Below are positions 30,174-63,373 of a DNA stretch of 64,000 nt, in pieces. Under the pieces are notes generated by a model, which was given only the letters and a program-made list of their open reading frames with translations, was not told where the DNA came from and made no database searches. The position numbers and the translations under genes were made by a program. Source of the DNA: Streptomyces soli (GTDB lineage Bacteria > Actinomycetota > Actinomycetes > Streptomycetales > Streptomycetaceae); the NCBI RefSeq assembly GCF_003999195.1, contig NZ_RJVR01000049.1:1-64000 (forward strand). Reading direction: 5' to 3'. Positions within the stretch are counted from its first letter, which is position 1. Each line of letters opens with the position of its first letter.

Positions 30174-31586
30174 TCAGGCCCAGGTCATGAGGCGCTTGGG
30201 GTATTCGAGGATGGCGGCGGTGTCGGCGAGGACGCGGGAGCCGAGTTCGCCGTCGACGAGGCGGTGGTCGAAGGAGAGGGCGAGGGTGGTGACCTGGCGG
30301 GGCTTGACCTTGCCCTTGTGGACCCAGGGTTGTTCCTTGACGGCGCCGAAGGCGAGGATCGCGGACTCCCCCGGGTTGAGGATGGGCGTGCCGGTGTCGA
30401 CGCCGAAGACGCCGACGTTGGTGATGGTGACGGTGCCGCCCTGCATGTCGCCGGGGGAGGTGCGCCCCTCGCGGGCGATGGCGACGAGGTCGCCGAGGGC
30501 GGCGGCCAGTTCGGGCAGGGTCTTGGCGTGGGCGTCCTTGATGTTGGGGACGATGAGCCCGCGCGGGGTGGCGGCGGCGATGCCGAGGTTGACGTAGCCC
30601 TTGTGGACGATTTCCTGGCGGCCCTCGTCCCAGGCGGCGTTGACGTCCGGGTTGCGGCGGATCGCGACCAGCAGCGCCTTGGCGACCAGCAGCAGAGGGC
30701 TGACCTTGAGCCCGGCGAAGGCCGGGTCGGCCTTGAGTTCCTGGACGAGCCGCATGGTGCGGGTGATGTCGAAGGTCAGGAACTCCGTCACATGCGGGGC
30801 CGTGAAGGCGCTGGCCACCATTGCGGCGGCCGTGGCCTTGCGTACGCCCTTGATCGGCACCCGGGTCTCCAGCGCCGACGGCTGGACCGACGTGACCGAA
30901 GGCTCCACCACCACAGGCGAAACCGCAGGGGCCGGGGCGGGCGCCGCCGGGGCGACGGCCGCCTGGATGTCCTCGCGGGTGATGACGCCGCCCGGGCCGG
31001 TCGGGGTGACCCCGGCCAGGTCCACGCCGAGGTCCTTGGCGAGCTTGCGCACCGGCGGCTTGGCCAGCGGGCGGGGCTCGGTCACAGTGGCGTGGCCGTT
31101 CAGCTCAGGACCGGCCTTGGCCTGGGCCGGCACAGCGGCCTTCTTGCGCGGGCGGCGCTTGGTCGAGGACGCGGCGACGCCGTAGCCGACCAGCACCGGC
31201 TGCCGCTTCGGCGCCTCCGGCTCGGGTGCCCTGACGGGCTCGGGCGCCTTTACGGCCACGGGCTCGGCCAGCGGCTCGGCAGCGGAGGCAGCAGCAGCCG
31301 GGGCCACCTCCCCGGCCGGGGCGCCCGGGTCGGTGTCGACAGCGATGATCACCGCGCCGACGTCCACCGTGTCACCCTCGCCGAAGTGCAGCTCGTGCAC
31401 GACGCCGTCGAAGGGGATGGGCAGTTCCACGGCGGCCTTGGCGGTCTCGACCTCGCAGACGACCTGACCGTCGGTGACGGGGTCGCCGGGCTTGACGTAC
31501 CACTTGAGGATCTCGGCCTCGGTGAGTCCTTCGCCCACGTCGGGCATCTTGAACTCGCGGAAGCGCTGTGCAGTCACGGTCGTCAC
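30174..31586 (-). CDS. bkdC: Branched-chain alpha-keto acid dehydrogenase E2 (first cluster)
   Basis: This 470-residue dihydrolipoyl acyltransferase has an N-terminal lipoyl domain with the ETAKA lipoylation site (Lys near residue 48), a Pro/Ala-rich linker, a peripheral-subunit-binding domain (VRKLAKDLGVDLAGVTPTG near 180), and a C-terminal catalytic domain ending with FDHRLVDG (His and Asp catalytic). It transfers branched acyl groups to CoA. The GTG start follows the E1-beta stop by nine bases with GGAGAGGG before it. Third gene of the operon. Branched-chain acyl-CoA also primes fatty acid and polyketide synthesis in Streptomyces. Confidence 0.95.
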   Translation of the reverse strand: MTTVTAQRFREFKMPDVGEGLTEAEILKWYVKPGDPVTDGQVVCEVETAKAAVELPIPFDGVVHELHFGEGDTVDVGAVIIAVDTDPGAPAGEVAPAAAASAAEPLAEPVAVKAPEPVRAPEPEAPKRQPVLVGYGVAASSTKRRPRKKAAVPAQAKAGPELNGHATVTEPRPLAKPPVRKLAKDLGVDLAGVTPTGPGGVITREDIQAAVAPAAPAPAPAVSPVVVEPSVTSVQPSALETRVPIKGVRKATAAAMVASAFTAPHVTEFLTFDITRTMRLVQELKADPAFAGLKVSPLLLVAKALLVAIRRNPDVNAAWDEGRQEIVHKGYVNLGIAAATPRGLIVPNIKDAHAKTLPELAAALGDLVAIAREGRTSPGDMQGGTVTITNVGVFGVDTGTPILNPGESAILAFGAVKEQPWVHKGKVKPRQVTTLALSFDHRLVDGELGSRVLADTAAILEYPKRLMTWA

Positions 31587-31595
31587 AACCCTCTC

Positions 31596-32576
31596 CTAGT
31601 ACGCCAGCGCGCGGTCGACGGCATCGAGTACCCGGTCAAGCCCTGGCAGGTACTCCTCCTCCAGCCGGGCCGGCGGGTAGGGGGCGTGGAAGCCGCCGAC
31701 CCGTAGCACCGGTGCCTGCAGGTGGTAGAAGCACCGCTCGGTGATCCGGGCCGCGATCTCGGCACCCATGCCGAGAAAGACCGGGGCCTCGTGCACTGTC
31801 ACCAGGCGTCCGGTCTTCTGCACCGACGCCTGGAGGGTGTCGAAGTCCACCGGCGACAGTGACCGCAGATCCACAACCTCAAGGCTACGGCCCTCCTCGG
31901 CGGCCGCGGCGGCGGCCTCCAGGCAGACCTTCACCATCGGCCCGTACGCGGCCAGGGTGACGTCCGTGCCGTCGAGCACCGTATGCGCGGTGTGCAGCGG
32001 GGCCGGGATGGCGGTCGGATCGACCTCGCCCTTGTCCCAGTATCGCCGCTTGGGCTCGAAGAAGATGACCGGGTCGTCGCAGTCGATGGCCTGCTGGAGC
32101 ATCCAGTAGGCGTCCTGCGGGTTCGAGGGGGAGACCACCTTCAGGCCCGGGATGTGCGCGAACAGCACCTCGGGGGACTCGGAGTGGTGCTCGACCGCGC
32201 CGATGCCGCCCGCGTACGGGATGCGGATGACGACCGGCAGCTTGATCTTGCCGAGCGCACGGGCGTGCATCTTGGCGAGCTGGGTGACGATCTGGTCGTA
32301 CGCGGGGAAGACGAAGCCGTCGAACTGGATCTCCACCACCGGCCGGTAGCCGCGCAGGGCCAGGCCGATGGCGGTGCCGACGATGCCGGACTCGGCGAGC
32401 GGGGTGTCGATGACCCGGTTCTCGCCGAAGTCCTTCTGCAGTCCGTCCGTGATGCGGAAGACGCCGCCGAGCTTTCCGATGTCCTCGCCCATGAGGACGA
32501 CCTTGGCGTCGGTCTCCAGGGACTTGCGCAATGCCTCGTTCAGGGCCTTGGCGATGGTCATGGTCGTGGTCGCCAT
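31596..32576 (-). CDS. bkdB: Branched-chain alpha-keto acid dehydrogenase E1 beta (first cluster)
   Basis: This 326-residue subunit has the transketolase-like pyrimidine-binding domain (LMGEDIGKLGGVF near residue 29, with the Glu that activates thiamine diphosphate; Q-F-D-G-F-V-F-P-A-Y near 83) and the C-terminal transketolase domain. It forms an alpha2-beta2 tetramer with the gene product upstream. The start ATG lies one base after the E1-alpha stop, so the subunits are made in equal amounts. Confidence 0.95.
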   Translation of the reverse strand: MATTTMTIAKALNEALRKSLETDAKVVLMGEDIGKLGGVFRITDGLQKDFGENRVIDTPLAESGIVGTAIGLALRGYRPVVEIQFDGFVFPAYDQIVTQLAKMHARALGKIKLPVVIRIPYAGGIGAVEHHSESPEVLFAHIPGLKVVSPSNPQDAYWMLQQAIDCDDPVIFFEPKRRYWDKGEVDPTAIPAPLHTAHTVLDGTDVTLAAYGPMVKVCLEAAAAAAEEGRSLEVVDLRSLSPVDFDTLQASVQKTGRLVTVHEAPVFLGMGAEIAARITERCFYHLQAPVLRVGGFHAPYPPARLEEEYLPGLDRVLDAVDRALAY

Positions 32577-32577
32577 G

Positions 32578-33732
32578 TCAGTGGCCCTCCTCGAAGGTCG
32601 CGAGGTACTCGGCGAACTGCGCCCGCTCCTCGTCGACGAGCGCGTGCCCGTCCGCGTAGACGTTCTCGAAGATCGCCATCGTGTCCGGGTCCGGCATGGT
32701 CCGTACGGCCTCGCGGACCCGCTTGCCGAGGGCCTCGCTCTCCGCCTCGATGCCGGCGAGGTAGGCCTCGTCGGCCAGGCCTTCCTTCTCCAGGTAGGTC
32801 CTCAAACGAAGGATCGGGTCCTTGCGTTCCCACTGCTCCCGCTCCTCGTCCAGGCGGTAACGGGTGGGGTCGTCGGAGGTGGTGTGCGCGCCCATGCGGT
32901 AGGTGAAGGCCTCCACCAGCATCGGGCCCTGGCCGCTACGGGCGTGCTCAAGGGCCGCCTTGGTGACCGCCAGCACCGCCAGCACGTCGTTGCCGTCCAC
33001 CCGGACGCCCGGGAAGCCGAAGCCGGCCGAGCGCTGGTAGATCGGGACGCGGGTCTGCTTCTCGGTGGGCTCGGAGATCGCCCACTGGTTGTTCTGGCAG
33101 AAGAACACCACCGGCGCGTTGTAGACGGCGGCGAAGGTGAAGGCCTCGGCGACGTCGCCCTGGCTGGAGGCGCCGTCCCCGAAGTACGCGATGACGGCCG
33201 AGTCGGTGCCGTCCATGGCCGCGCCCATCGCGTAGCCCGTGGCGTGCAGCGTCTGCGAGCCGATCACGATCGTGTAGAGGTGGAAGTTGTTCTCGTTGGG
33301 GTCCCACCCGCCGTGGTTCACCCCTCGGAACATCCCCAGAAGATTCGCCGGGTCCACCCCGCGGCACCAGGCGACGCCGTGCTCGCGGTACGTCGGGAAG
33401 ACGTAGTCGTCGGGGCGGGTGGCCCGGCCTGAGCCGATCTGTGCGGCCTCCTGACCCAGCAGCGAGGCCCACAGGCCCAGCTCCCCCTGCCGCTGCAGAG
33501 AGGTGGCCTCGGCGTCGAAGCGGCGGGTCAGCACCATGTCCCGGTACAGGCCACGCAGCTCGTCAGGGCTCAGGTCAATGGAGTACTCACTGTGCTGGAC
33601 GCGCTCGCCCTCAGGGGTCAGCAGCTGTACGAGTTCCGGCTCGCCAGTACCCCCACGGCGCTTCGCGCCGCCGCGGGTGCCCGTGCCCGTACGGGGCGTA
33701 CGGGGCTTCGCGGCAGTGCTCTTCACGCTCAC
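32578..33732 (-). CDS. bkdA: Branched-chain alpha-keto acid dehydrogenase E1 alpha (first cluster)
   Basis: This 384-residue thiamine-diphosphate subunit has the GDG-x26-NN type motif ([10 protein letters not shown] to FFCQNN) and a TYREHG substrate-site segment. A short basic Thr-rich N-terminal tail (about 30 residues) precedes the fold. The GTG at 33730-33732 has GGAGG eight bases upstream; another GTG two codons later is possible. It is the first gene of the three-gene operon, with a 336-bp divergent region shared with the response regulator gene. A paralogous operon lies 17 kb away. Confidence 0.95.
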
Positions 33733-34068
33733 GCTTCGCTCCTCCGTCTGTCCGGCCCCCGGGATCCGCCGGTGGCCAGTGCGGCTCCTACCCGCCTCGA
33801 CACGGCGCACGGGGTGTGTGCGGCACGGCCGAGCCGGGAGTGTTGTCTCGCCCCGGCAGGCAGCCCTGCAAAACGAACGTTACCCACACCTTCCGCTTTC
33901 GCGCGAAGAGTGTCTTACCTGCGGTTTTGCTTGGATTTCCTAGTAAATCGAGGTTCTCGCAAGGTTCTCGCAGGCCAACCGTGGGTCACCGGGACAACCG
34001 CACGGTATCCCGAGGACTCGAAGCTGCGTAAGAGGCCAGGGGATCGAATCCTGTGCGAGGCTGAGATA
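33733..34068. other. 336-bp divergent promoter region between bkd and response regulator
   Basis: No gene is visible. It holds an 11-bp tandem repeat, AGGTTCTCGCA (33951-33961 and 33962-33972), and a CTTTCGCGCGAAG dyad near 33895-33907. Either may be regulatory. The region is less GC-rich than its surroundings near 33900-33960. Confidence 0.6.
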
Positions 34069-50449: not shown

Positions 50450-51697
50450 CTATACGTTCCGAAGCAGAGTCGCCGGCCGCTCCACGCAGTCCGCCACGAA
50501 CCGCAGGAAGCCCCCGGCGGTCCCTCCGTCGCACACCCGGTGGTCAAAGGTGAACGACAGCTGCACAACCTGCCGCACCGCCAACTCCCCCTCCCACACC
50601 CACGGTTTCGGCGCTATCCGCCCAACGCCAAGCATCGCCGCCTCCGGGTGATTGATGATTGGCGTCGACCCGTCCACCCCGAACACCCCGTAGTTGTTCA
50701 GCGTGAACGTCCCTCCGGTCAGCTCCGCCGGCGTCAAGGATCCCGCCCGCGCAGCCTCCGTGAGCCGCCCGATCTCCTCCGAGAGCCCCTCGACGGTCCG
50801 CGCCTGCGCATCCCGCACCACAGGCACGACCAGCCCGCGCTCAGTCTGCGCGGCGAAGCCGAGGTGGACGGCCGGCAGCCGTACGATCTCGTTCCGCTCG
50901 ACGTCCACCGTCGCGTTGATCTCGGGGAACCGGCCCAGCGCGGCCGTGCAGATCCGTGCGAGCAGGGCGAGCACGGACACCTTGGTCGTCGCACCGGCGT
51001 TCATCGCGGCGCGGGCGGCCAGCAGTTCGGTCGCGTCGGCGTCAACCCAGCACGTGGCGTCGGGTATCTCGCGGCGGCTCCGGCTGAGCTTCTCCGCGAC
51101 GGCACCGCGCATCCCGCGCAGGGGTATGCGGGAGCTGTCGCGCGGAGCGTCGGGGGCGGGAGCCGGCGCCTTGACAGCCGCCCGTTCGACGTCGGCGCGA
51201 AGGATCAGCCCGTCGGGGCCCGACCCGGCCAAGGACCGCAGATCAACACCGTGTTCCTTGGCGATACGCCGTACGAGCGGCGAGATGACGGCCACGGGAC
51301 CGTCGACCCGGGTGCCGTTCGCCGCAGGGGCCGCGACGGCCACGCCGGCCGTGACAGCCGCACCCCGCACTCGCCTCCGCCGCGCCGCGGGCGCACCCGT
51401 GCCGTAGCCGACCAGAACGTTGCCGGAGGTGTCGTCCCCGGGGGTCTCCCGTGGCCCGACGGCGACGGTGATCAGAGGCCGTCCGACGTCGAGCGACTCG
51501 CCCTCCTCACCGAACCGCGCGGTCACCACGCCCCCGTAGGGGCAGGGCACTTCCACCACTGCCTTCGCTGTCTCGACCTCGACGACGGGCTGGTCGATGG
51601 CGACGACATCGCCGACCCCCACCAGCCAGCGCACGATCTCGGCCTCGGTCAGCCCTTCTCCCAGGTCAGGGAGGAGGAACTCACGGACGACGGGCAT
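50450..51697 (-). CDS. bkdC: Branched-chain alpha-keto acid dehydrogenase E2 (second cluster)
   Basis: This 415-residue acyltransferase has the lipoyl domain with the ETAKA lipoylation motif (near residue 44), a linker, a peripheral-subunit-binding domain (VRRIAKEHGVDLRSLAGSGPDG near 147) and a catalytic domain ending FDHRVCDG. It is shorter in the linker than the first-cluster E2. The start overlaps the E1-beta stop by one base (TGATG). It is the third gene of the operon next to bkdR, and ends at a terminator. Confidence 0.95.
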   Translation of the reverse strand: MPVVREFLLPDLGEGLTEAEIVRWLVGVGDVVAIDQPVVEVETAKAVVEVPCPYGGVVTARFGEEGESLDVGRPLITVAVGPRETPGDDTSGNVLVGYGTGAPAARRRRVRGAAVTAGVAVAAPAANGTRVDGPVAVISPLVRRIAKEHGVDLRSLAGSGPDGLILRADVERAAVKAPAPAPDAPRDSSRIPLRGMRGAVAEKLSRSRREIPDATCWVDADATELLAARAAMNAGATTKVSVLALLARICTAALGRFPEINATVDVERNEIVRLPAVHLGFAAQTERGLVVPVVRDAQARTVEGLSEEIGRLTEAARAGSLTPAELTGGTFTLNNYGVFGVDGSTPIINHPEAAMLGVGRIAPKPWVWEGELAVRQVVQLSFTFDHRVCDGGTAGGFLRFVADCVERPATLLRNV

Positions 51698-52725
51698 CAC
51701 GCACCCCCTTCGTCCCACTGGAGGCGGGCGACCGCGTCCAGAATCCGGTCGACGCTGGGTAGATGGTGCCGTTCGAGCATGGGCGGCGGATACGGGATGT
51801 CGAAGCCGGTGACCCGCAGCACGGGCGCCTCCAGATGGTGGAAGCAGCGCTCGGTCACCCGGGCGGCGATCTCCGCCCCCGCCCCGCCGAAGCCGGCCGA
51901 CTCGTGGACGACGACAGCGCGGCCGGTCCGACGCACCGACGCGGTGAGCGTCTCGTCGTCGAACGGCATCAGACTGCGCAGGTCCAGCACCTCCAGGTCC
52001 CAGCCATCCGCCTCCGCCGCCTCGGCGGCTTCGAGGCACACCGGCACCGAGGGCCCGTACGTGATGAGCGTCGCCGAGCGGCCCGGGCGCCGGACCACGG
52101 CCTGCCCGATCCCCGGGACCTCGTCCGGGGCGTCGGGGGACCAGTCGGCCTTGGACCAGTAGAGGCGCTTGGGCTCCAGGAAGATCACGGGGTCGTCGGA
52201 GGCGATGGCGGCGCGCAGCAGCCCGTACGCGTCCGCGACGGTGGCCGGGGTGACGACGTGCAGCCCGGGTGTGTGCAGGTAGTACGCCTCGGAGGAGTCG
52301 CTGTGGTGCTCGACCCCGCCGATGCCGCCGCCGTACGGCACGCGAATGGTGAGCGGCAGCGGCAGCTCGCCGCGCGTGCGGTTCCGCATCCGCGAGACAT
52401 GGCTGACCAGTTGCTCGAATGCGGGGTAGGCGAAGGCGTCGAACTGCATCTCGACGACCGGCCGGAGCCCGTACATCGCCATGCCGACGGCCGTGCCGAG
52501 GATGCCGGCCTCCGCCAGCGGTGTGTCCGTACAGCGGCTGTCGCCGAACTCCTTGGCGAGCCCGTCGGTGATGCGGAAGACGCCGCCCAGGGTGCCGATG
52601 TCCTCGCCGAGGAGATGGACCGACGGATCGTCGGCGAGGGCGTCGCGCAGGGCGCGGTTGAGCGCCTGCGCCATGGTGGCGGGCTTTCGCGCGGTGGCAC
52701 GGGCGGTGGCAAGAGCGGTGGTCAT
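51697..52725 (-). CDS. bkdB: Branched-chain alpha-keto acid dehydrogenase E1 beta (second cluster)
   Basis: This 342-residue subunit has LLGEDIGTLGGVF near residue 38 with the activating Glu, and QFDAFAYPAFEQ near 94. A basic Ala/Thr-rich N-terminus (about 15 residues) precedes the fold. It overlaps the E1-alpha gene by four bases (ATGA) upstream and the E2 gene by one base. Together with E1-alpha it decarboxylates the keto acids of Val, Leu and Ile. Confidence 0.95.
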   Translation of the reverse strand: MTTALATARATARKPATMAQALNRALRDALADDPSVHLLGEDIGTLGGVFRITDGLAKEFGDSRCTDTPLAEAGILGTAVGMAMYGLRPVVEMQFDAFAYPAFEQLVSHVSRMRNRTRGELPLPLTIRVPYGGGIGGVEHHSDSSEAYYLHTPGLHVVTPATVADAYGLLRAAIASDDPVIFLEPKRLYWSKADWSPDAPDEVPGIGQAVVRRPGRSATLITYGPSVPVCLEAAEAAEADGWDLEVLDLRSLMPFDDETLTASVRRTGRAVVVHESAGFGGAGAEIAARVTERCFHHLEAPVLRVTGFDIPYPPPMLERHHLPSVDRILDAVARLQWDEGGA

Positions 52726-53822
52726 GACCCGGCCTCCGCGTCCAGCTCGGCGCGCAGCATCTCGGCCTGCTCCCTGAGCTGGGGGGTCGGCTCGGCGTAG
52801 ACGTGTGCGAAGAGGTCCATGGGATCCAGGGCCGGGTCCTCGTTCATGCGGTCGCGCAGGTCGGCCGCCATCCGCTCGGCGTCGTCCTCGACCTCGCTGA
52901 CCAGGCTCTCGTCGAACAGCCCCCGGGCCCGCAACTCCTGTTCCAGCAGGGCGATCGGGTCGCGGTCACGCCATGCCTCGACCTCGGCGTCGTCTCGGTA
53001 GCGGCCGGCGTCGTCGGCGTTCGTATGCGCCTCGATCCGATAGGTGACGGCCTCGACCAGCGTCGGGCCGCCGCCTTCCCGGGCCTGCCGCACCGCTTCG
53101 GTGAGGACCTCGTGGACGGCGGCCGCGTCGTTGCCGTCGACGAGCCGGCCCGGCATGCCGTAGCCGACGGCCTTGTGGGCGAAGGACGGCGCGGCGGTCT
53201 GCTTGGCGAGCGGCACAGAGATGGCGAAGCCGTTGTTCTGCACGAAGAAGACGACCGGCGCCCGCCATACGGCGGCGAAGTTCAGCGCCTCGTGGAAGTC
53301 GCCCTCACTCGTGCCGCCGTCGCCGACCATGGCGAGGGCCACGACATCGTCGCCCTGGAGCCGGGCGGCGTGCGCGAGGCCGACCGCGTGCGGCAGCTGG
53401 GTGGCGAGCGGGGTGCTGAGCGGCGCGACGTGGCATGCGCGGGAGTCGTAACCGGAATGCCAGTCGCCGCGCAGCAGCGTGAGCACCTGGACGGGGTCGA
53501 CGCCACGGGCGACGACGGCGAGGGTGTCGCGATAGCTGGGGAAGATCCAGTCCTGCGGCCGGAGCGCGAGCGCGGCGGCGATCTGGCAGGCCTCCTGGCC
53601 GGTGCTGGAGGGGTAGACGGCGAGCCGGCCCTGCTTGGTGAGCGCGGTGGCCTGCCGGTTGTAGCGGCGGCCGCGCACCAGCCGTCCGTACAGCTCGGTG
53701 AGCAGACCGGGCTCGAGCGTGCGGGCCTGCGGGGTGCCGAGCACACGGTAAGGCTCCGCGTCGGGCAGCAGCGGCGCGGGCTCGGTGCGGGGGTGCCAGA
53801 CGGGCTGGTCCAGGACGGTCAT
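52722..53822 (-). CDS. bkdA: Branched-chain alpha-keto acid dehydrogenase E1 alpha (second cluster)
   Basis: This 366-residue thiamine-diphosphate subunit has VGDGGTSEGDFHEAL to FFVQNNGFA near residues 170-205 (the thiamine-binding motif) and PSYRDTLAVVARG near 97. GGAGG lies eight bases before the ATG at 53820-53822; an ATG three codons earlier is possible. It is divergent from bkdR (188 bp apart). A TetR-type palindrome (53895-53908) in that region is shared with paa promoters. Products prime branched fatty acids and polyketides. Confidence 0.95.
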   Translation of the reverse strand: MTVLDQPVWHPRTEPAPLLPDAEPYRVLGTPQARTLEPGLLTELYGRLVRGRRYNRQATALTKQGRLAVYPSSTGQEACQIAAALALRPQDWIFPSYRDTLAVVARGVDPVQVLTLLRGDWHSGYDSRACHVAPLSTPLATQLPHAVGLAHAARLQGDDVVALAMVGDGGTSEGDFHEALNFAAVWRAPVVFFVQNNGFAISVPLAKQTAAPSFAHKAVGYGMPGRLVDGNDAAAVHEVLTEAVRQAREGGGPTLVEAVTYRIEAHTNADDAGRYRDDAEVEAWRDRDPIALLEQELRARGLFDESLVSEVEDDAERMAADLRDRMNEDPALDPMDLFAHVYAEPTPQLREQAEMLRAELDAEAGS

Positions 53823-53894: not shown

Positions 53895-53908
53895 ACCGAT
53901 TGTTCGGT
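53895..53908. promoter_or_regulatory. ACCGA-N4-TCGGT palindrome upstream of bkdA
   Basis: ACCGATTGTTCGGT is 73 bases before the bkdA start. It matches the palindromes at 56696-56709 and 61358-61371 upstream of paa genes, differing only in the centre. It is the likely binding site of the TetR protein encoded at 54520-55113. Confidence 0.6.
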
Positions 53909-54010
53909 CGTCGGAGGCATTTTGGCTACAGGTCGGTTGCGCCTGTGGACAAACGGTTCTCCACAGCCTGAGATGGAGCCAGTACGTCCATGGTAGGGAG
54001 GCTCGGGGGC

Positions 54011-54490
54011 GTGACAGATGAACAGATGGCCGATACCGCGCCGGCCGGGCGCCCTCTCGACGCCATCGACCGCGCGATCCTGCGATACCTGCAGGAGGAC
54101 GGACGCGCCTCGATACGGTCCGTCGCCGAACGCGTCCACGTGTCGCGGGCCAATGCCTACGCGCGCATCAACCGGCTCATCGAGGACGGCGTCATCCGTG
54201 GTTTCACCGCCCGCGTCGACCACGAACGCGCAGGTCACGGCGCATCCGCCTACATCACACTCAAGATCGTCCAGAATTCCTGGCGAACTGTCCGCGAAAA
54301 GCTCCTCGCCCTTCCCGGCGTCGCCCACATCGCCCTGGTGAGCGGCGACTTCGACGTCCTGATGCTGGTCCACACCCCCGACAACCGCAGCCTGCGCGAG
54401 CTGGTCCTCACCCGCATCCAGGCGGTGCCGGAAGTCCTGAGCAGCCGCACCCTGCTGGTCTTCGAGGAGACCGACCAGGTCCTGAGCTAG
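54011..54490 (+). CDS. bkdR: Lrp/AsnC family regulator BkdR
   Basis: This 159-residue protein has an N-terminal helix-turn-helix (about 15-65: LDAIDRAILRYLQEDGRASIRSVAERVHVSRANAYARINRLIEDG) and a C-terminal RAM ligand-binding domain (about 75-150). It is divergent from bkdABC, the position of the AsnC-type BkdR regulators in other bacteria, which respond to branched-chain amino acids. I chose the GTG at 54011 because GGGAGG lies nine bases before it; an ATG at 53990 is possible. Confidence 0.92.
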   Translation: MTDEQMADTAPAGRPLDAIDRAILRYLQEDGRASIRSVAERVHVSRANAYARINRLIEDGVIRGFTARVDHERAGHGASAYITLKIVQNSWRTVREKLLALPGVAHIALVSGDFDVLMLVHTPDNRSLRELVLTRIQAVPEVLSSRTLLVFEETDQVLS

Positions 54491-54519
54491 GCGCCGGGCC
54501 CGGTCCGCCCGGGCGGGGC

Positions 54520-55113
54520 CTACGCCCTGCGCAGGCCGTCGAAGGCCAGGCGCACCACCGCGTCCGCGACCTGGTCGCTTTCGAGGCCGCCGCCGTCGTC
54601 CTTGGGGCGGTACCACTCCACTATGGAGTTGATCATCCCGAAGAGCAGCCTCGTCGCCAGCCTCAGGTCCACGTCGGCGCGCAGATCGCCCTCCGCGGCC
54701 GCCGCCTTCAGCAGGTCCGTCACGCGGTGGTCGAACTCCCGGCGCCGCTCCATGGCCCACCGCTCGGTCTGCGTGTTCCCGCGCACCCGCAGCAGCAAGG
54801 TGACGTAGGGCAGCTCTGCCATCAGCACCTCGGCGGTGCGCCGCGTAACGTACTCCAGCCGCTCGACCGCCCGCCCGCCCTGTGCGCCGGGCTCATCAAG
54901 AATGCCGAACAGGCCGTCCAGCGCCCGCCCGACGGCCCGGCGCAGCAGCTCCTCCTTGCCACGTACGTGGTGGTAGATGGAAGACTTCGAGATTCCGGCG
55001 GCCCGCGACAGGTGCTCCATGGAGGTGCCGTCGTAGCCGCGCTCGATGAACACCTCGACGGCGACGGCGAGGAGGGTCTCGGGCGTGTACGTGTCGCGCT
55101 GGGCCATGGTCAT
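54520..55113 (-). CDS. TetR family regulator of phenylacetate degradation (PaaR-type)
   Basis: This 197-residue protein has the TetR helix-turn-helix (about 8-55: YTPETLLAVAVEVFIERGYDGTSMEHLSRAAGISKSSIYHHVRGKEELL) and an all-helical ligand domain. Its ATG lies two bases after the 3-hydroxyacyl-CoA dehydrogenase stop, so it is translated with paaH. Three copies of one palindrome near bkdA, paaN/paaH and paaA are its likely operators. Related PaaR proteins release DNA on binding phenylacetyl-CoA; I infer the same here. Confidence 0.88.
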   Translation of the reverse strand: MTMAQRDTYTPETLLAVAVEVFIERGYDGTSMEHLSRAAGISKSSIYHHVRGKEELLRRAVGRALDGLFGILDEPGAQGGRAVERLEYVTRRTAEVLMAELPYVTLLLRVRGNTQTERWAMERRREFDHRVTDLLKAAAAEGDLRADVDLRLATRLLFGMINSIVEWYRPKDDGGGLESDQVADAVVRLAFDGLRRA

Positions 55114-55115
55114 GA

Positions 55116-56639
55116 TTACAGCAGCCTCTCCTGGGAGGCCGCGCGGCGGATCAACAGGTGAGAGGGCGCGTAACGGCCGGTCGGATGTGTGGTGTGCATC
55201 AGCTTGAGGAAATCGCAGACCCAGTCCGCGCCCAGGAGTTCGCCCCACTGCAAGGGGCCCAGCGGGTAGTTGACGCCCAGGCGCATCGCGATGTCGATGT
55301 CGTCAGGTGACGCCACGCCCTTGGCGACCGCGTCAGCGGCGAAGTCCACCAGCATGGCGACGGTACGGGCGACGATCAGGCCGGGGGTGTCGTCAATGAC
55401 GCTGACCTTCTTACCCAGCGCCTGGAGGAGGCCGATCGCGGCCTGGACCGTCTCGGGGCGGGCCGTGTCGGACGGCGCCAGGGCGATGCGGGTGGCGGCG
55501 CGGTAGTCCAACGCGAGGTCGAACTGCACGCGGTCGTCGCCGAAGGCGGTCGCGAGGTCGCCGTCGGCCAGGCACAGCAATCCACCGCCGGGCAGCTCGA
55601 TGCAGCCGTCGAACGCGCCGTCCGGTGCGCCCTCCACCACCTCGATGCCCGCCTCGGCGATCAGTTCGGGGAGCACGGCGGCGGGCCCCTGCCCGCCCGG
55701 GCGCACGGTGACCTCGGCGGGCGCCTTCTCCAGTTCGGCCGTACGCGGTTCAGGGCGAGCCGCGCCGTCGTACGCGTACCAGCCCCGCCCGGACTTGCGG
55801 CCGAGCCGCCCGGCCTCCACCAAGCGCCGCTGCGCGAGCGACGGGGTGAACTTCGGGTCCTGGAAGAAGGACTCCCATACGGAGCGGGTGACCGCCTCGT
55901 TGACGTCCTGGCCGATCAGATCGGTCAGCTCGAAGGGCCCCATCCGGAAGCCGCCGCACTCGCGCAGCACCGCGTCAATGGTGGCGGGATCGGCCACGCC
56001 CTCCTCAAGGAGGCGGAACGCCTCCGCGTAGAAGGGGCGGGCGACACGGTTGACGATGAAGCCCGGCGTGTCGGTGCAGCGCACCGGCGTCTTGCCCCAG
56101 GCGACCATCGTCTCGTACGCGGCCGTGGCCGCCGCCTCGTCGGTGGCGGCGCCGGACACCACCTCGACCAGCGGCAGCAGGGGAGCGGGATTGAAGAAGT
56201 GCAGGCCCAGGAAGCGGCCCGGGCGGCGCAGGGCCGCGCCGACGGCGGTGACGGACAGGGAGGAGGTGTTGGTGGCCAGCAGGCAGTCGCCGCCGACGAC
56301 GGTCTCCAGGGCGGTGAAGAGCTGCTGCTTGGCGCCCAGGTCCTCCAGGATCGCCTCGATGACCAGCTCCGCGCCGGCCAGCTCGCCGAGCTCCTCCGCC
56401 GGGGCCAGCCGGGCGCGGGCGGCGTCCCTGGCGGCGGCGTCCAGGCGGCCCTTTTCGACCAGCCGGTCGAAGCGCTCCGTTATGGCCTGCTCGGCCAGCA
56501 CGGCGCGCCCGGGGGCGGCGTCGTAGAGCCGGACATGGTGACCGGCGGCCAGGGCGACCTGGGCGATTCCCTGGCCCATGGTGCCCGTGCCGACGACGGC
56601 GATCGTGCTGCTTCGGTCAAGCGGGTCCGGCGCGGTCAT
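55116..56639 (-). CDS. paaH: 3-hydroxyacyl-CoA dehydrogenase (PaaH/PaaC-type)
   Basis: This 507-residue enzyme has an N-terminal NAD-binding domain (VVGTGTMGQGIAQVALAAGHHV near residue 15) and two C-terminal 3-hydroxyacyl-CoA dehydrogenase domains (about 195-295 and 405-495; the second begins near VARTVAMLVDFAAD). The catalytic region includes NTSSLS and HFFNPAPLLPLVEVV near 142. It oxidises 3-hydroxyadipyl-CoA, a late step of phenylacetate breakdown. The ATG at 56637-56639 was chosen with GAGGAG upstream. It is divergent from paaN and shares its operator region. Confidence 0.92.
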   Translation of the reverse strand: MTAPDPLDRSSTIAVVGTGTMGQGIAQVALAAGHHVRLYDAAPGRAVLAEQAITERFDRLVEKGRLDAAARDAARARLAPAEELGELAGAELVIEAILEDLGAKQQLFTALETVVGGDCLLATNTSSLSVTAVGAALRRPGRFLGLHFFNPAPLLPLVEVVSGAATDEAAATAAYETMVAWGKTPVRCTDTPGFIVNRVARPFYAEAFRLLEEGVADPATIDAVLRECGGFRMGPFELTDLIGQDVNEAVTRSVWESFFQDPKFTPSLAQRRLVEAGRLGRKSGRGWYAYDGAARPEPRTAELEKAPAEVTVRPGGQGPAAVLPELIAEAGIEVVEGAPDGAFDGCIELPGGGLLCLADGDLATAFGDDRVQFDLALDYRAATRIALAPSDTARPETVQAAIGLLQALGKKVSVIDDTPGLIVARTVAMLVDFAADAVAKGVASPDDIDIAMRLGVNYPLGPLQWGELLGADWVCDFLKLMHTTHPTGRYAPSHLLIRRAASQERLL

Positions 56640-56687
56640 GGCGGAGCTGCTCCTCGGCGAGTTATCCACAGGTTCGGCCGACCCCTC

Positions 56688-56715
56688 TTGTCCCGACCGA
56701 ACATTCGGTTAATCT
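56688..56715 (+). promoter_or_regulatory. paaN promoter with internal ACCGA-N4-TCGGT operator
   Basis: TTGTCC (56688-56693), a 16-base spacer and TAATCT (56710-56715) make a plausible promoter. The palindrome ACCGAACATTCGGT (56696-56709) fills the spacer, so bound repressor would exclude RNA polymerase. The same site lies upstream of paaH on the other strand. Confidence 0.65.
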
Positions 56716-56780
56716 AGCGGTGTTGCCAGCATGAAGCATCCTGCCCATCCGCCCGCACCAGCTCGACGAGGAGTTGGCCC

Positions 56781-58487
56781 ATGGCTGCCGAGCTCACCGA
56801 TCCCACCGGTCTCACCGCTCTCCCCTTGATCGAACGGCATCGCGAGACCCTCGACAAGGGCCTCGCCGCTATCCGTACTCGCGAGTACTGGTCGCCGTAC
56901 CCCGAGCACCCCAAGGCGTACGGGGACGGCGAGACCGGCAAGGCCGCCTTCGACGCCCTGCTGCACAGCCGCTTCGACCTGGACCAGCCCGGCACCGACG
57001 GCTGGACAGGCGGCGAGGTGTCGCCGTACGGCATCGAGCTGGGCGTGGAGTATCCGCACCCGGATGCGGATGTGCTGCTCCCGGCGATGCGCGCCGCCCT
57101 CCCGGCCTGGCGCGACGCCGGCCCGGAGACGCGGGCCGCGGTCAGCCTGGAGATCCTCTCCCGGATCAACGCGCGGACCAATGAGTTCGCGCACGCGGTC
57201 ATGCACACCTCGGGCCAGGCCTTCATGATGGCCTTCCAGGCGGGCGGCCCGCACGCCCAGGACCGCGGCCTTGAGGCGATCGCGTACGCCTACGCCGAGC
57301 AGACCCGCACCCCGGAGAGGGCGGAGTGGGTCAAGCCGCAGGGCAAGCGCGATCCGCTGAGTCTGCGCAAGGACTTCAAGGCGGTGCCGCGCGGCATCGC
57401 CCTGGTCATCGGCTGCAACACCTTCCCGACATGGAACGGCTACCCGGGGTTCTTCGCCTCTCTGGCCACTGGCAATCCGGTGCTGGTCAAGCCGCATCCT
57501 CGGGCCGTGCTGCCGCTCGCACTCACGGTCAAGGTCGCCCGCGAGGTGCTCGCCGAGGCCGACTTCGACCCGAATCTGGTCGCCCTGGCCGCCGAACAGC
57601 CCGGCGAGGGCCTGGCCAAGACGCTGGCGGTGCGCCCCGAGATCCGCGTCATCGACTACACCGGCTCGACCGCCTTCGGCGACTGGCTGGAGGCCAACGC
57701 CCGCCAGGCGCAGGTCTTCACCGAGAAGGCCGGGGTCAACACGGTGATCATCGACTCCACCGACGACTACAGCGGCCTGCTGTCCAATCTCGCCTTCTCG
57801 CTCTCGCTCTACAGCGGTCAGATGTGCACCACCCCGCAGAATCTGCTGATCCCCCGCGACGGCATCGACACCGACGCCGGTCACAAGATGTACGACGAGG
57901 TGGTCGCCGACCTCGCCGCGGCCGTGGGCGGCCTGCTCGGCGACGACGCCCGGGCCAACGCCCTGCTCGGCGCCCTGGTCAACCCCGACGTGAAGAGCCG
58001 CCTGGAAGCCGCCCCGTCGGTCGGCGAAGTCGCCCTGGCCTCGCGGGCGGTGCCCAATCCGGAGTTCCCCGACGCCGTGGTCCGCACCCCGGTGATCGTG
58101 AAGCTGGACGGCGCCAAGCCCGACGACGAAGCGGCGTACATGACGGAGTGCTTCGGCCCGGTGTCCTTCGCGGTCGCCGTCGACTCGCCGGAGGCCGCGG
58201 TGGAGCTGCTGCGCCGCACGGTGCGCGAGAAGGGCGCCATGACGGTCGGCGCCTACACGACCTCCCCCGAGGTGGAGCGGCTGATCGAGGAGGCCTGCTG
58301 GGACGAGTCGGCGCAGCTGTCGCTGAATCTGACCGGCGGGGTCTACGTCAACCAGACCGCGGCGTTCTCCGACTTCCATGGCTCGGGCGGCAATCCGGCC
58401 GCCAACGCGGCCCTGTGCGACGGCGCGTTCGTCGCCAACCGTTTCCGGGTCATCGAGGTCCGCCGTCCCAGTGGAACAGCGTCATAG
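56781..58487 (+). CDS. paaN: Phenylacetic acid degradation protein PaaN (aldehyde dehydrogenase)
   Basis: This 568-residue protein is the single-domain PaaN form. It has an aldehyde dehydrogenase fold with IGCNTFPTWNGYPGFFASL near residue 212, IDYTGSTAFGDWLEANARQ near 291, and the catalytic loop SGQMCTTPQN near 348 (Cys intact). There is no C-terminal MaoC-type hydratase, unlike the bifunctional PaaZ. It oxidises the ring-cleavage aldehyde to 3-oxo-5,6-dehydrosuberyl-CoA. Its 3' end overlaps the convergent TrmH-type gene by 38 bases. Confidence 0.95.
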   Translation: MAAELTDPTGLTALPLIERHRETLDKGLAAIRTREYWSPYPEHPKAYGDGETGKAAFDALLHSRFDLDQPGTDGWTGGEVSPYGIELGVEYPHPDADVLLPAMRAALPAWRDAGPETRAAVSLEILSRINARTNEFAHAVMHTSGQAFMMAFQAGGPHAQDRGLEAIAYAYAEQTRTPERAEWVKPQGKRDPLSLRKDFKAVPRGIALVIGCNTFPTWNGYPGFFASLATGNPVLVKPHPRAVLPLALTVKVAREVLAEADFDPNLVALAAEQPGEGLAKTLAVRPEIRVIDYTGSTAFGDWLEANARQAQVFTEKAGVNTVIIDSTDDYSGLLSNLAFSLSLYSGQMCTTPQNLLIPRDGIDTDAGHKMYDEVVADLAAAVGGLLGDDARANALLGALVNPDVKSRLEAAPSVGEVALASRAVPNPEFPDAVVRTPVIVKLDGAKPDDEAAYMTECFGPVSFAVAVDSPEAAVELLRRTVREKGAMTVGAYTTSPEVERLIEEACWDESAQLSLNLTGGVYVNQTAAFSDFHGSGGNPAANAALCDGAFVANRFRVIEVRRPSGTAS

Positions 58488-59208
58488 CCACGCTGGTGGC
58501 GAGGTTGTAGCTGGAGACCTGGGGGCGCATGGGCAGCGCCACCAGCCGGTCCGCGCGGCTGCGCAGCTCCGCCGAGATGCCGTGCCGCTCTGAGCCGAAG
58601 GCGATCAGGGCGTCGTCGGGGATGACGACGGTCCGGATGTCCTCGCCCTCCGGGTCGAGGACGTGCAGCGGCCCGGGCGGCAGATCGTCGATGCCGAGCC
58701 GCTCCACGGCGGTGGCGTAGTGCAGCCCGGCCCCGGCCCGTACGGCATTGGAATGCCAGGGGTCCAGGTCGCCGGTGGTGACCACGCCCGTGGCGCCGAA
58801 GCCGGCGGCGAGGCGGACCACGGCTCCGACGTTGCCCAGGTTGCGGGGGTTGTCCAGAACGACGACCGGCGCTGGCCGGGGAAGCCGGGACAGGCTCTTC
58901 CGGTTGGCGTGCTCGCTCGGCCTGACCGCCAGCGCGGCGACCCCGGTCGGGTGCACCCTGGGCACAAGCTCCTTCAGCACGGCGGCCGGGACCTCGACGA
59001 GCGACGCGGCGAGCGCATTGGTGAGGTCGTCCGCCAGCTCGGCCGCGAGGCCGAGCACCGCGTCCTTGTCAGCGGCGACCGCCAGCTGTACATCCGCGCC
59101 GAAGCGCAGGGCGTGCTTCAGCGCGTGGAAGCCGTCGAGGAGCACAGCCCCCGGGGCCAGCTCACGCCATTCACCTGCGCCGGTCTTCGCCTCGTTGTCG
59201 CTGGTCAC
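58450..59208 (-). CDS. SpoU/TrmH-type RNA 2'-O-methyltransferase
   Basis: This 252-residue protein has a short N-terminal substrate-binding domain and the knotted SPOUT catalytic domain: motif 1 NPRNLGNVGAVVR near residue 121, motif 2 FGSERHGIS near 206, and motif 3 PMRPQVSSYNLATSVAM near 228. It methylates the 2'-hydroxyl of a ribose in tRNA or rRNA; the target is not given by sequence. It overlaps the HTTM gene by four bases and is the last of a three-gene operon. Confidence 0.93.
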   Translation of the reverse strand: MTSDNEAKTGAGEWRELAPGAVLLDGFHALKHALRFGADVQLAVAADKDAVLGLAAELADDLTNALAASLVEVPAAVLKELVPRVHPTGVAALAVRPSEHANRKSLSRLPRPAPVVVLDNPRNLGNVGAVVRLAAGFGATGVVTTGDLDPWHSNAVRAGAGLHYATAVERLGIDDLPPGPLHVLDPEGEDIRTVVIPDDALIAFGSERHGISAELRSRADRLVALPMRPQVSSYNLATSVAMTLFHWDGGPR

Positions 59209-60530
59209 CCCACGAGGTTAGACGGGGCGGGATCGGCAGAGGGCTCCGGCTGCCCCTGGGCCCCGGCGTCGGCCCCGGGCGCCGCCTCGGCCGCGGCCTC
59301 CGGGACCGTACGGCCGCCCATACGGCGCACCCGCCGGGAGACCCGGTCGCCCACCCAGCGCAGGAAGCCGGTCGGCAGGAAGACCGCGTCGGCGGTGATC
59401 ATCGCGAGGGAGAAGAACGGCAGCCCGAGCACGACCGCGATCGAGGCGTGCTCGACCATCATCAGCGCGAGCAGCACATTCTTCACCCGGCGGTTGAAGA
59501 GGGTGAAGGGGAAGGCGACCTGCACGATCACCGTGCCGTAGGTGATGACCATGACCATGAGGCCGCTGCTCGCCATGGCGTGGGACAGCTCGGGCCAGGG
59601 GCTGAAGTCGTCGAGGTGGAGCGGGTAGTAGAGCGCGGTGCCGTCCTGCCAGCGGTTGCCCTGGATCTTGTACCAGCCGGCGGTGGCGTAGATCAGGCAG
59701 ACCTCGACGATGATCACCAGCAGGGTGCCGTTGTGCGCGAGGTTGGCGAAGATGTCCAGGACGGTCCGGGGCTCACGGTCGGGCGCGTAACGGTTCACGG
59801 CCCACCAGACGGCCTGCGCGAGCCAGAAGCCCCAGAAGATGACCGCCCAGCCCCAGCTCAGCAGCCCGAGCGCGGTGACGAGCACCAGCGCCGCGCCCAG
59901 CACCGACCAGAGCACGATGCCGGTGGTGTCACGCTGCGGGCCCCGTTCCGAGCCGTCTTCCGGATCGTCGTCCTGGCTGTCCTGCGGACCGTCTTCCCGG
60001 CTGTTCTCCGCGATCCGGGCCCGGCGCCGCGAGTCCAGCGACCAGACCTGACCGCAGCGGGTCAGGACGAGATAGATGGCCATGAGGTGGATGACGTTGT
60101 CGCCGCCGTCGCCGACGAAGACACTGCGGTTCTGCAGCGACAGCACGCCGATCATGAACAGCAGCGAGGCGGTGCGGGTCCGCCAGCCGAGCAGCAGCAT
60201 CGCGGAGGCGACGATGGCGCCCGCGTAGACGACCTCGAACCACAGCTGGCCGCGGGTCCACATCAGGACGGAGAAGGCGTGGTTGTCGGCGATGAGCTGG
60301 TGCGCCATGTCCCAGCTCCACACGCCGTCCGGCCCGTAGAGCTCCTGGCGGTGCGGCCACTCGCGCAGCAGGAACAGCATCCAGGCCAGCGAGAAGCCCA
60401 TCCGGACGACCGCCGTCTGGTACCGGCCTATGGCCGTACCCGTGAGCCGGGCCAGACCGCCCGAGATGCCCTTGCCGAGGGCCCTTCCCAGGCCTGCGAA
60501 GGGGGACGGAACGATGCTCCGCTCACTCAC
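59205..60530 (-). CDS. HTTM domain protein (vitamin K-dependent carboxylase-like)
   Basis: This 441-residue membrane protein has about eight hydrophobic segments and the HTTM pattern: ARLTGTAIGRYQTAVVRMGFSLAWMLF near the start, WGWAVIFWGFWLAQAVWWAVN and a YATAGWYKIQGNRWQDGTALYYPLHLDDF segment near 290. HTTM is related to the gamma-glutamyl carboxylase transmembrane domain; bacterial versions are usually of unknown function. An acidic Glu/Asp/Ser-rich insertion (about residues 175-205) lies in a cytoplasmic or periplasmic loop. GTGA overlap (4 bp) joins it to the DUF5819 gene. Confidence 0.9.
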   Translation of the reverse strand: MSERSIVPSPFAGLGRALGKGISGGLARLTGTAIGRYQTAVVRMGFSLAWMLFLLREWPHRQELYGPDGVWSWDMAHQLIADNHAFSVLMWTRGQLWFEVVYAGAIVASAMLLLGWRTRTASLLFMIGVLSLQNRSVFVGDGGDNVIHLMAIYLVLTRCGQVWSLDSRRRARIAENSREDGPQDSQDDDPEDGSERGPQRDTTGIVLWSVLGAALVLVTALGLLSWGWAVIFWGFWLAQAVWWAVNRYAPDREPRTVLDIFANLAHNGTLLVIIVEVCLIYATAGWYKIQGNRWQDGTALYYPLHLDDFSPWPELSHAMASSGLMVMVITYGTVIVQVAFPFTLFNRRVKNVLLALMMVEHASIAVVLGLPFFSLAMITADAVFLPTGFLRWVGDRVSRRVRRMGGRTVPEAAAEAAPGADAGAQGQPEPSADPAPSNLVG

Positions 60531-61198
60531 GAGCCGTCCTCCTTTGTGTCCACGGGCCACCAGGGGAGCACCTGGAAGCTGGTCGCTGTGTTGATCTTCT
60601 CGTTGCTCCACGGGGGCGCTGCGATCGGCGTGGTGCTCGCGCGGACCTGGACGCGCTCGACGGCCCCTCCGTTGAGGCGCGGGCCGAAACGGGTCTCGAC
60701 GATGCGCTGGACGTACGCCCTGCTCATCTCGCCGCGGGTGCCGATCGGGCGGTTCTGGTCGCCGTGCGTGCTGGTGTAGAAGGACCAAGCCCGGCGCAGC
60801 TCGTTCTGCTTGGTGTGGCTGGGCGCCGGGTTGTGCCGGATGTCGGCGATGTCCATCGCTGTGAGGTCGACCCAGCCGGTGGTCTCGGTGCTGCCGTCGC
60901 CCTTGCGGACCTCGGCGCGCGCCCAGACGTGGATGTTCTGCTGCACCGGGTTGGGGGCGAACAGCTTCCAGTTCTGCTCGAACTCGGGGTAGATGTACTC
61001 CGCCACCAGGTCGCCGTGCTGCGTGGTGATGGTGTTCTCCGGCGCCACGTGCAGGAACACGGCGAGGAGGTGGACGGCGACCATGACCGCCACGGCGGCG
61101 ACGGCCAGCGCCACCGCTATCCGGGAGGGAAGCGACAGGGCGCCTACGCCGCCGCTGCCACCACCCGGTCGTGCCCGTACGTCCTCGGGTGGCTCCAT
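60527..61198 (-). CDS. DUF5819 family membrane protein
   Basis: This 223-residue protein has one N-terminal transmembrane segment (about 25-48) followed by an extracytoplasmic domain with YIYPEFEQNWKLFAPNPVQQNIHVW near residue 74. That is the DUF5819 pattern, regularly found next to HTTM genes, which suggests one complex. It is the first gene of the operon, starting with ATG at 61196-61198 behind GAGGAG. Divergent from paaA with 197 bp between. Confidence 0.88.
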   Translation of the reverse strand: MEPPEDVRARPGGGSGGVGALSLPSRIAVALAVAAVAVMVAVHLLAVFLHVAPENTITTQHGDLVAEYIYPEFEQNWKLFAPNPVQQNIHVWARAEVRKGDGSTETTGWVDLTAMDIADIRHNPAPSHTKQNELRRAWSFYTSTHGDQNRPIGTRGEMSRAYVQRIVETRFGPRLNGGAVERVQVRASTTPIAAPPWSNEKINTATSFQVLPWWPVDTKEDGS

Positions 61199-61357
61199 GT
61201 CGTCAGTACTCCTCGTTCCCCGCGTTGCTTTCCGCACGGAACGGTACTCATGCCACACAGCCGCAGTACAGCCATCCCGGTTATCTCGGTTGTCCACAGG
61301 CCGCCGGGGATTGACCTTGACACCGTCCGGGGCCCGGCCCACCATGGGATCGAGCAG

Positions 61358-61371
61358 ACCGAACGATCGGT
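61358..61371. promoter_or_regulatory. ACCGA-N4-TCGGT palindrome upstream of paaA
   Basis: ACCGAACGATCGGT ends 24 bases before the paaA ATG, with AAGGGGG between. It matches the palindromes near paaN and bkdA. Binding here would block initiation of the paaABCDE operon. Confidence 0.65.
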
Positions 61372-61395: not shown

Positions 61396-62354
<959 letters not shown>

Positions 62355-62358
<4 letters not shown>

Positions 62359-62645
62359 GCCCGGCAACCGACTGGCCGCTGTGGGAGGTCTTCGTCCGCA
62401 GTCGGCGCGGACTGAGCCACAGCCACGCGGGCAGTCTGCACGCGCCCGACGCGACCATGGCCCTGCGCCAGGCCCGCGACCTCTACACCCGGCGCGGCGA
62501 GGGCGTGTCGATCTGGGTCGTGCCGTCCTCCCAGATCACCGCGTCCTCACCCGACGAGAAGGACCCCTTCTTCGAGCCCGCAGCCGACAAGCCCTACCGC
62601 CACCCGACTTTCTACGAGATCCCGGAAGGGGTACGCCACCTATGA
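62355..62645 (+). CDS. paaB: 1,2-phenylacetyl-CoA epoxidase subunit PaaB
   Basis: This 96-residue subunit has the PaaB pattern: [52 protein letters not shown], with a final [25 protein letters not shown]. It bridges PaaA and PaaC heterodimers in the complex. The ATG overlaps the paaA stop by four bases (ATGA). Confidence 0.96.
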
Positions 62646-63373
62646 ACCGCGTACCTGTGACCGCCGCGATCGCGCTGGGCGACGACGCCCTCGTCCTCGC
62701 CCAGCGGCTGGGGGAGTGGGCCGGTCACGCACCGGTCCTGGAGGAGGACGTCGCCCTGGCCAACATCGCCCTGGACCTGCTGGGCCAGGCCCGGACGCTG
62801 CTCTCCATGGCCGGGGACGAGGATCAACACGCCTATCTGCGGGAGGAACGCGAGTTCCGCAACGTCCAGCTCGTGGAGCAGCCCAACGGCGACTTCGCCC
62901 ACACCATCGCCCGCCAGCTGTACTTCGCCACGTACCAGCAGCTGATGTACAGCGAACTGGCCACAGCTCAGAGCGAATTGGAGCAGGGTGGACTGGCGGC
63001 GCTCGCCGCCAAGGCGGTGAAGGAGGTCGCCTACCACCGCGACCACGCCGTGCAGTGGACGCTGCGGCTCGGCGACGGCACCCCCGAGAGCCATGAGCGG
63101 ATGCAGCGCGCCCTGGACGCCCTGTGGCGGTACACCGGCGAACTGTTCCAGCCGATGGAGGGGCTGCCCGTCGACCTCCCGGCCCTGCGCGAGCCGTGGC
63201 TGGCGGCGATCGGCGAGGTCGTGGCCCGCGCCACCCTGACCATGCCGGACGGCCCGGACCGCACCCCCTGGGCGGCCGGAGCGGGCCGCCAGGGCGTCCA
63301 CACTGAGTCCTTCGGCCGGATGCTGGCCGAGATGCAGCATCTTCACCGGGCACACCCGGGGGCGTCATGGTGA
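62642..63373 (+). CDS. paaC: 1,2-phenylacetyl-CoA epoxidase subunit PaaC
   Basis: This 243-residue structural subunit has the ferritin-like fold of PaaA but without catalytic iron: LGDDALVLAQRLGEWAGHAPVLEEDVALANIALDLLGQARTLL near residue 12, and AVKEVAYHRDHAVQWTLRLGDGT near 126. It holds PaaA active. The ATG overlaps the paaB stop by four bases. Confidence 0.96.
   Translation: MNRVPVTAAIALGDDALVLAQRLGEWAGHAPVLEEDVALANIALDLLGQARTLLSMAGDEDQHAYLREEREFRNVQLVEQPNGDFAHTIARQLYFATYQQLMYSELATAQSELEQGGLAALAAKAVKEVAYHRDHAVQWTLRLGDGTPESHERMQRALDALWRYTGELFQPMEGLPVDLPALREPWLAAIGEVVARATLTMPDGPDRTPWAAGAGRQGVHTESFGRMLAEMQHLHRAHPGASW

Follow-up and report, generated by a model that had tools for sequence, protein, structure and literature searches.

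Four transcription units of Streptomyces soli, as judged from sequence, are most likely repressed by PaaR, a TetR-family regulator of phenylacetate genes, with the 2-oxoacid dehydrogenase genes bkdABC as a new member. That PaaR controls paa genes has been established before; bkdABC and the unlinked paaI-paaK genes would complete a four-unit regulon. The window analyzed here is 64,000 nt in length (contig NZ_RJVR01000049.1, positions 1-64,000). In bacteria of the Streptomyces type, PaaR very probably controls bkdABC, since the same DNA switch lies ahead of all these genes and their RNAs rise together in published data. The same motif is found ahead of paa genes and bkdABC in >100 related genomes.

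The palindrome ACCGA-N4-TCGGT occurs at 53895, 56696, and 61358, three copies in the window versus 0.06 expected, and 0 of 100 shuffles reached three. The sites and the promoter that one of them overlaps are:

53895-53908: predicted PaaR operator at bkdA, ACCGATTGTTCGGT, 73 nt 5′ of the bkdA ATG (53822, minus strand).
56696-56709: predicted PaaR operator at paaH-paaR / paaN, ACCGAACATTCGGT, inside the paaN -35/-10 spacer.
56688-56715, plus strand: paaN promoter, TTGTCC (56688-56693), 16 nt, TAATCT (56710-56715), assigned by eye.
61358-61371: predicted PaaR operator in the paaA leader, ACCGAACGATCGGT, 24 nt 5′ of the paaA ATG (61396).

The original prediction, an earlier note on this DNA that proposed one TetR regulator for all three sites, gave the sequences and coordinates of these 14-mers exactly, and each lies in the 5′ region of a gene. 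The bkdA operator is 3′ of the likely bkdA promoter, and lrp diverges on the opposite side. The middle operator is 57 nt from the paaH ATG (56639, minus strand) and 71 nt from the paaN ATG (56781, plus strand). It fills the paaN spacer, as had been noted, taking up 14 of the 16 nt that separate TTGTCC from TAATCT, in a block that is kept in relatives. An automatic sigma-70 scan detected no consensus promoter at paaN, so both boxes were set by eye.

The loose motif ACCGA-N4-TCGGT was rejected as a definition of the regulon. It occurs at 26 places in the 9.4-Mb assembly (10 for a reversed-pattern control), and 13 of the 23 places outside the window are within well-supported open reading frames. 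The strict form ACCGAWNNWTCGGT, fitted by all three window sites, occurs at 4 places in the genome versus 1 for the reversed-pattern control. These are the three window sites and one at the unlinked paaI-paaK genes, that is, phenylacetate genes or bkdA. The fourth site (G000:C141:9712; L016:4013) is 12 bp 5′ of a thioesterase gene, which is directly followed by the gene for an AMP-binding ligase. A genome search with the 14-mer consensus had been proposed, and many copies at unrelated promoters were to count against a shared regulator; such scatter was found for the loose pattern only, not for ACCGAWNNWTCGGT. Most genomes of the genus hold the strict pattern at 2-6 places, with 0 for the reversed control. 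Additional strict sites in relatives are located at paaK promoters (G002, G004, G009, G012, G023, G027, and G033) and at a relocated paaA (G028). Some strict matches in relatives were set aside as coding, such as Thr-Asp-Arg-Ser-Val codons in a small conserved open reading frame, and ACCGACGACTCGGT, which some genomes have 3′ of paaC, is probably coding as well. Beyond paaI-paaK (L016:2221-4026, G000:C141) are a major facilitator superfamily transporter gene and a GH18-like gene.

The TetR gene of the window is assigned by homology as PaaR and is orthologous to the PaaR line of Streptomyces:

54520-55161, minus strand: paaR, TetR-family repressor orthologous to SCO3833; start codon uncertain.

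Its protein matches PDB 2iai (SCO3833 of S. coelicolor, E 2.9e-92) and the Pfam models TetR_N and TetR_C_24 above cut-off. The gene belongs to the paaH operon, as first proposed, overlapping paaH and lying 3′ of it. It is beside paaN and 6 kb from paaA, and this linkage is conserved in relatives. PaaR-type palindromes of the strict form are present at paaN/paaH, paaA, and paaIK. Assignment as PaaR would give a function to SCO3833, whose structure was deposited merely as a "putative transcriptional regulator."

Known PaaR proteins control phenylacetate genes, as the original prediction stated, and this holds for S. pristinaespiralis. An account of the S. pristinaespiralis homologue (SSDG_03033) calls it PaaR and a repressor of paa genes, and prints its putative site as AACGA-N4-TCGGT (PMC10933834). 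This protein resembles the window PaaR as a TetR repressor of paa genes with nearly the same site in the same organism family. However, its published effect is on phenylacetyl-coenzyme A (phenylacetyl-CoA) supply for phenylglycine, and the literature surveyed, which did not include the original paper, names no bkd target. For Burkholderia cenocepacia PaaR, reporter assays and gel shifts have been carried out with the operator ACCGACCGGTCGGTT, from which the protein is released by phenylacetyl-CoA (compound II) and not by phenylacetate (PMC9493321). The core of that operator is the same palindrome as the window motif. B. cenocepacia PaaR is alike in its ACCGA-N4-TCGGT operator, several separated paa units, and phenylacetyl-CoA release (PMC9493321), but its named targets are the paaA, paaH, and paaZ promoters only. 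The PaaR proteins of Corynebacterium glutamicum and Thermus thermophilus are likewise TetR repressors of phenylacetate genes, and phenylacetyl-CoA is the tested effector of the Thermus protein. In contrast, the Thermus consensus is CNAACGNNCGTTNG, and bkd is not among the targets of either protein in the review surveyed.

In the proposed mechanism, a PaaR dimer would bind ACCGA-N4-TCGGT at bkdABC, the divergent paaH-paaR / paaN, paaABCD(E), and the unlinked paaI-paaK. Repression at paaN would occur through occupation of the -35/-10 spacer, and at bkdA, paaA, and paaIK through PaaR sitting just 3′ of the promoter. By analogy with the tested PaaR proteins, phenylacetyl-CoA would release the repressor. 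With paaR within its own target operon, the system would be self-limiting. The bkdABC genes would most likely be included since their acyl-CoA, formed from phenylpyruvate or related 2-oxo acids, would enter the same pathway.

The bkdA site ACCGATTGTTCGGT has exactly the same letters in 79/79 named Streptomycetaceae loci, in all 34 relatives from the same genus, and in 19/19 genomes of the sister genus g17. It is present as a single copy in each of 37 genomes, the one analyzed here among them, with 0 for the reversed control. The paaH/paaN operator matches the exact pattern in 80/80 loci, and the paaA operator does so in all 67 loci holding paaA. Over 114 loci, the bkdA operator is 100% conserved, versus 62-72% in nearby flanks. 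One locus (L090, G007) is missing paaN beside paaH and keeps both the bkdA-side and paaH-side operators. Another family member (L111, G035) has no bkdABC homologue, and its paa genes are gathered in a single block, with paaA on one side of two operators, ACCGAATGTTCGGT, and paaI-paaK on the other.

The gene next to bkdA encodes an Lrp-type regulator:

53990-54490, plus strand: lrp/bkdR (SCO3832 type), divergent from bkdA; Pfam AsnC.

SCO3832 is named bkdR (PMC8176718, PMC12323332), is described as a regulator of the branched-chain dehydrogenase complex (PMC8176718), and adjoins SCO3831 (PMC12323332). The window has the same bkd cluster and adjacent Lrp gene as BkdR (SCO3832) / bkdA2B2C2, whose known control consists of Lrp-type BkdR and a proposed MtrA site, whereas the PaaR input would be new. 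It is very improbable that the bkdA palindrome is an autoregulatory or target site of BkdR with a chance likeness to PaaR sites. The naming of SCO3832 and a near-constant distance of ~95 bp between site and lrp in the genus agree with that explanation, but an exact strict match there by chance has a tiny probability, and the distribution of the site differs from that of lrp. Loci of bkdA in the PaaR-less families f18, f33, and f19-g38 hold the site in 0 of 18 cases, and the f18 bkd genes nest among Streptomycetaceae copies in the tree. In family f3, genus g5 combines PaaR and a site at paaN with an lrp-adjacent bkdA that is without the site. In genera g6 and g7 of this family, bkdA is beside paaR-paaN, without lrp, and carries the site (degenerate in G044). 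G047 has two kinds of bkdA, with the site only at the copy beside paaR-paaN and none at the lrp-adjacent copy. The site follows paaR-adjacent, lrp-free bkd genes and is absent at lrp-adjacent copies of other families, which argues that it is not an Lrp site. Lrp ownership was rejected on this distribution, with f3-g5, the G047 lrp copy, f33, and f19 all lacking the site. The lrp-adjacent and paaR-adjacent kinds of bkdA are in different clades of the tree, and two separate bkd lineages carry the site, a pattern suggesting repeated recruitment of bkd genes to PaaR control.

Published expression data from S. rimosus are consistent with PaaR control of bkdABC. In strain HP126, bkdA, bkdB, and bkdC (SRIMR7_19995, 20000, and 20005) are at +5.0, +4.6, and +4.7 log2 (PMC10612213, Table 2). 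In the same strain, paaE, paaD, and paaC (SRIMR7_19935, 19940, and 19945) are at +4.1, +3.5, and +3.3 log2, an unlinked phenylacetate-CoA ligase (35410) is at +3.1, and valine dehydrogenase is at -1.7 (PMC10612213). In an HP126-derived strain, bkd and ligase values are back to negative, and the authors treat bkd and paa as two upregulated pathways (PMC10612213). Co-induction of the bkd, paa, and unlinked ligase genes suggests one regulon. The tag spacing from 19995 to 19935 corresponds to thirteen genes, as from bkdA to paaE in window order. A single regulator for the three window sites is thus supported by PaaR orthology, the strictest genome matches, conservation in Streptomycetaceae, the fourth match at paaI-paaK, and the S. 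rimosus co-induction.

Several observations weigh against this assignment of bkdABC or narrow it. The co-expression of bkdABC with paa genes comes from a mutagenised strain rather than a paaR mutant, so the co-induction may be indirect. Gene order in S. rimosus was read from locus-tag spacing, and that comparison rests on expression, not on promoter sequences. The bkdA-lrp intergenic region contains further conserved blocks, so conservation by itself would not establish specificity. Genus g5 of f3 and the other sampled PaaR-bearing families are without the site at bkdA, and the link is lineage-specific rather than universal. Between PaaR-linked and unlinked copies, no E1 residues differ in a way that indicates substrate.

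Two bkd clusters are found in Streptomyces, and the avermectin literature has left the role of the paaN-adjacent one unclear. Its genes in the window are:

52722-53822, minus strand: bkdA, E1 alpha of a 2-oxoacid dehydrogenase, SCO3831/bkdA2 type.
51697-52725, minus strand: bkdB, E1 beta; match to NF006667 (PRK09212) under its cut-off.
50450-51700, minus strand: bkdC, E2 acyltransferase; Pfam 2-oxoacid_dh, lipoyl, and E3-binding; start approximate.

A second bkd-type E1-E2 cluster is located at 30174-33810 (SCO3815-3817 type, E1 alpha ~42% identical) and has no PaaR site. A synteny study reported bkd close to PaaN and, proposing no mechanism, suggested that the two are linked (PMC13118837), and a pyruvate dehydrogenase-like pair, PglB/C, is proposed to convert phenylpyruvate to phenylacetyl-CoA in pristinamycin biosynthesis (PMC7089894). 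Tentatively, bkdABC may encode the phenylpyruvate dehydrogenase of phenylalanine breakdown, which would make phenylacetyl-CoA directly and bypass PaaK. PaaR control of such a complex would make the regulon coherent and explain the presence of one of the two Streptomyces bkd clusters in a phenylacetate regulon. The bkdABC genes are the sole non-paa unit of the four, the second cluster is free of the site, two separate bkd lineages carry it, and in S. rimosus bkdABC is up with paa genes and valine dehydrogenase is down. The E1 subunits provide no residue signature for this substrate, however, and the adjacent SCO3832 is described as a branched-chain dehydrogenase regulator. Comparison of E1 alpha and beta between PaaR-linked and unlinked copies revealed scattered positions only, with the compared pocket motifs common to both and no pocket difference that would mark a substrate.

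It is doubtful that bkdABC encodes a conventional branched-chain keto acid dehydrogenase that is linked to phenylacetate breakdown, as the original prediction had it, by cross-pathway control, with PaaR keeping acyl-CoA supply and CoA demand in balance. E1 alpha and beta are like the unlinked copies at the compared positions and lrp/bkdR adjoins, but the site-free paralogous cluster could handle branched-chain acids, and valine dehydrogenase does not rise along with bkdABC in S. rimosus. Of the proposal that the bkdA copy adds branched-chain keto acid oxidation, the inclusion of bkdABC in the regulon is supported; the branched-chain meaning is as unproven as the phenylpyruvate route, which fits the regulon better. 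Placement of the bkd cluster under PaaR provides a cheap, direct handle on the role of the paaN-adjacent cluster and is relevant to engineering the supply of acyl-CoA and phenylacetyl-CoA as antibiotic precursors.

Gene order in this part of the window, from open reading frames and family models, is bkdC-bkdB-bkdA (minus strand), lrp (plus strand), the TetR gene and paaH (minus strand, overlapping), and paaN (plus strand). Next, 3′ of paaN, come three minus-strand genes, for SpoU methylase, HTTM, and DUF5819 proteins, and then paaA, paaB, paaC, and paaD (plus strand). Phenylacetate genes with family-model matches include:

55116-56639, minus strand: paaH, 3-hydroxyacyl-CoA dehydrogenase, first gene of the paaH-paaR unit; NCBIfam NF006124, 632.9 bits.
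56781-58487, plus strand: paaN, ring-opening aldehyde dehydrogenase family; TIGR02288, 963.6 bits, cut-off 578.75.
61396-62358, plus strand: paaA, first gene of the phenylacetyl-CoA epoxidase operon; TIGR02156, 521 bits, cut-off 280.
62642-63373, plus strand: paaC; TIGR02158, 247.8 bits, cut-off 133.35.

Against the PaaH model TIGR02279, paaH scores 586.6, under the cut-off of 669.4. The epoxidase genes paaA, B, C, and D are inside the window, and paaE is past its end. The SpoU methylase, HTTM (SdpB/vitamin-K-carboxylase-like), and DUF5819 genes occupy 58450-61309 on the opposite strand between paaN and paaA, a position kept in many relatives. These three genes are not known to have a phenylacetate link.

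The PaaR-site promoters share a second element, TTRTCCACAG, with 3 copies in the window versus 0.03 expected. One copy is found at each promoter, oriented with bkdA, paaN, and paaA:

53943-53952, minus strand: TTGTCCACAG, DnaA-box-like, 5′ of the bkdA operator; conserved in 79/79 named loci as TTDTCCACAG.
56662-56671, plus strand: TTATCCACAG, DnaA-box-like, 5′ of the paaN operator; conserved in 75/80 as TTDTCCACAG.
61290-61299, plus strand: TTGTCCACAG, DnaA-box-like, 5′ of the paaA operator; conserved in 57/67 as TTDTCCACAG.

The Streptomyces DnaA box TTGTCCACA followed by G gives TTRTCCACAG (PMC4285127). Genome-wide, 41 copies were found, and 29 of the 30 inspected are intergenic. It is an improbable, though conceivable, combination that Streptomycetaceae PaaR promoters are doubly wired, with DnaA or a same-site protein at TTRTCCACAG ~20-60 bp upstream tuning phenylacetate and bkdABC genes with replication state, and that bkdABC is a phenylacetyl-CoA-forming phenylpyruvate dehydrogenase. 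Read in the opposite direction, the bkdA-lrp copy could be the lrp -35 element.

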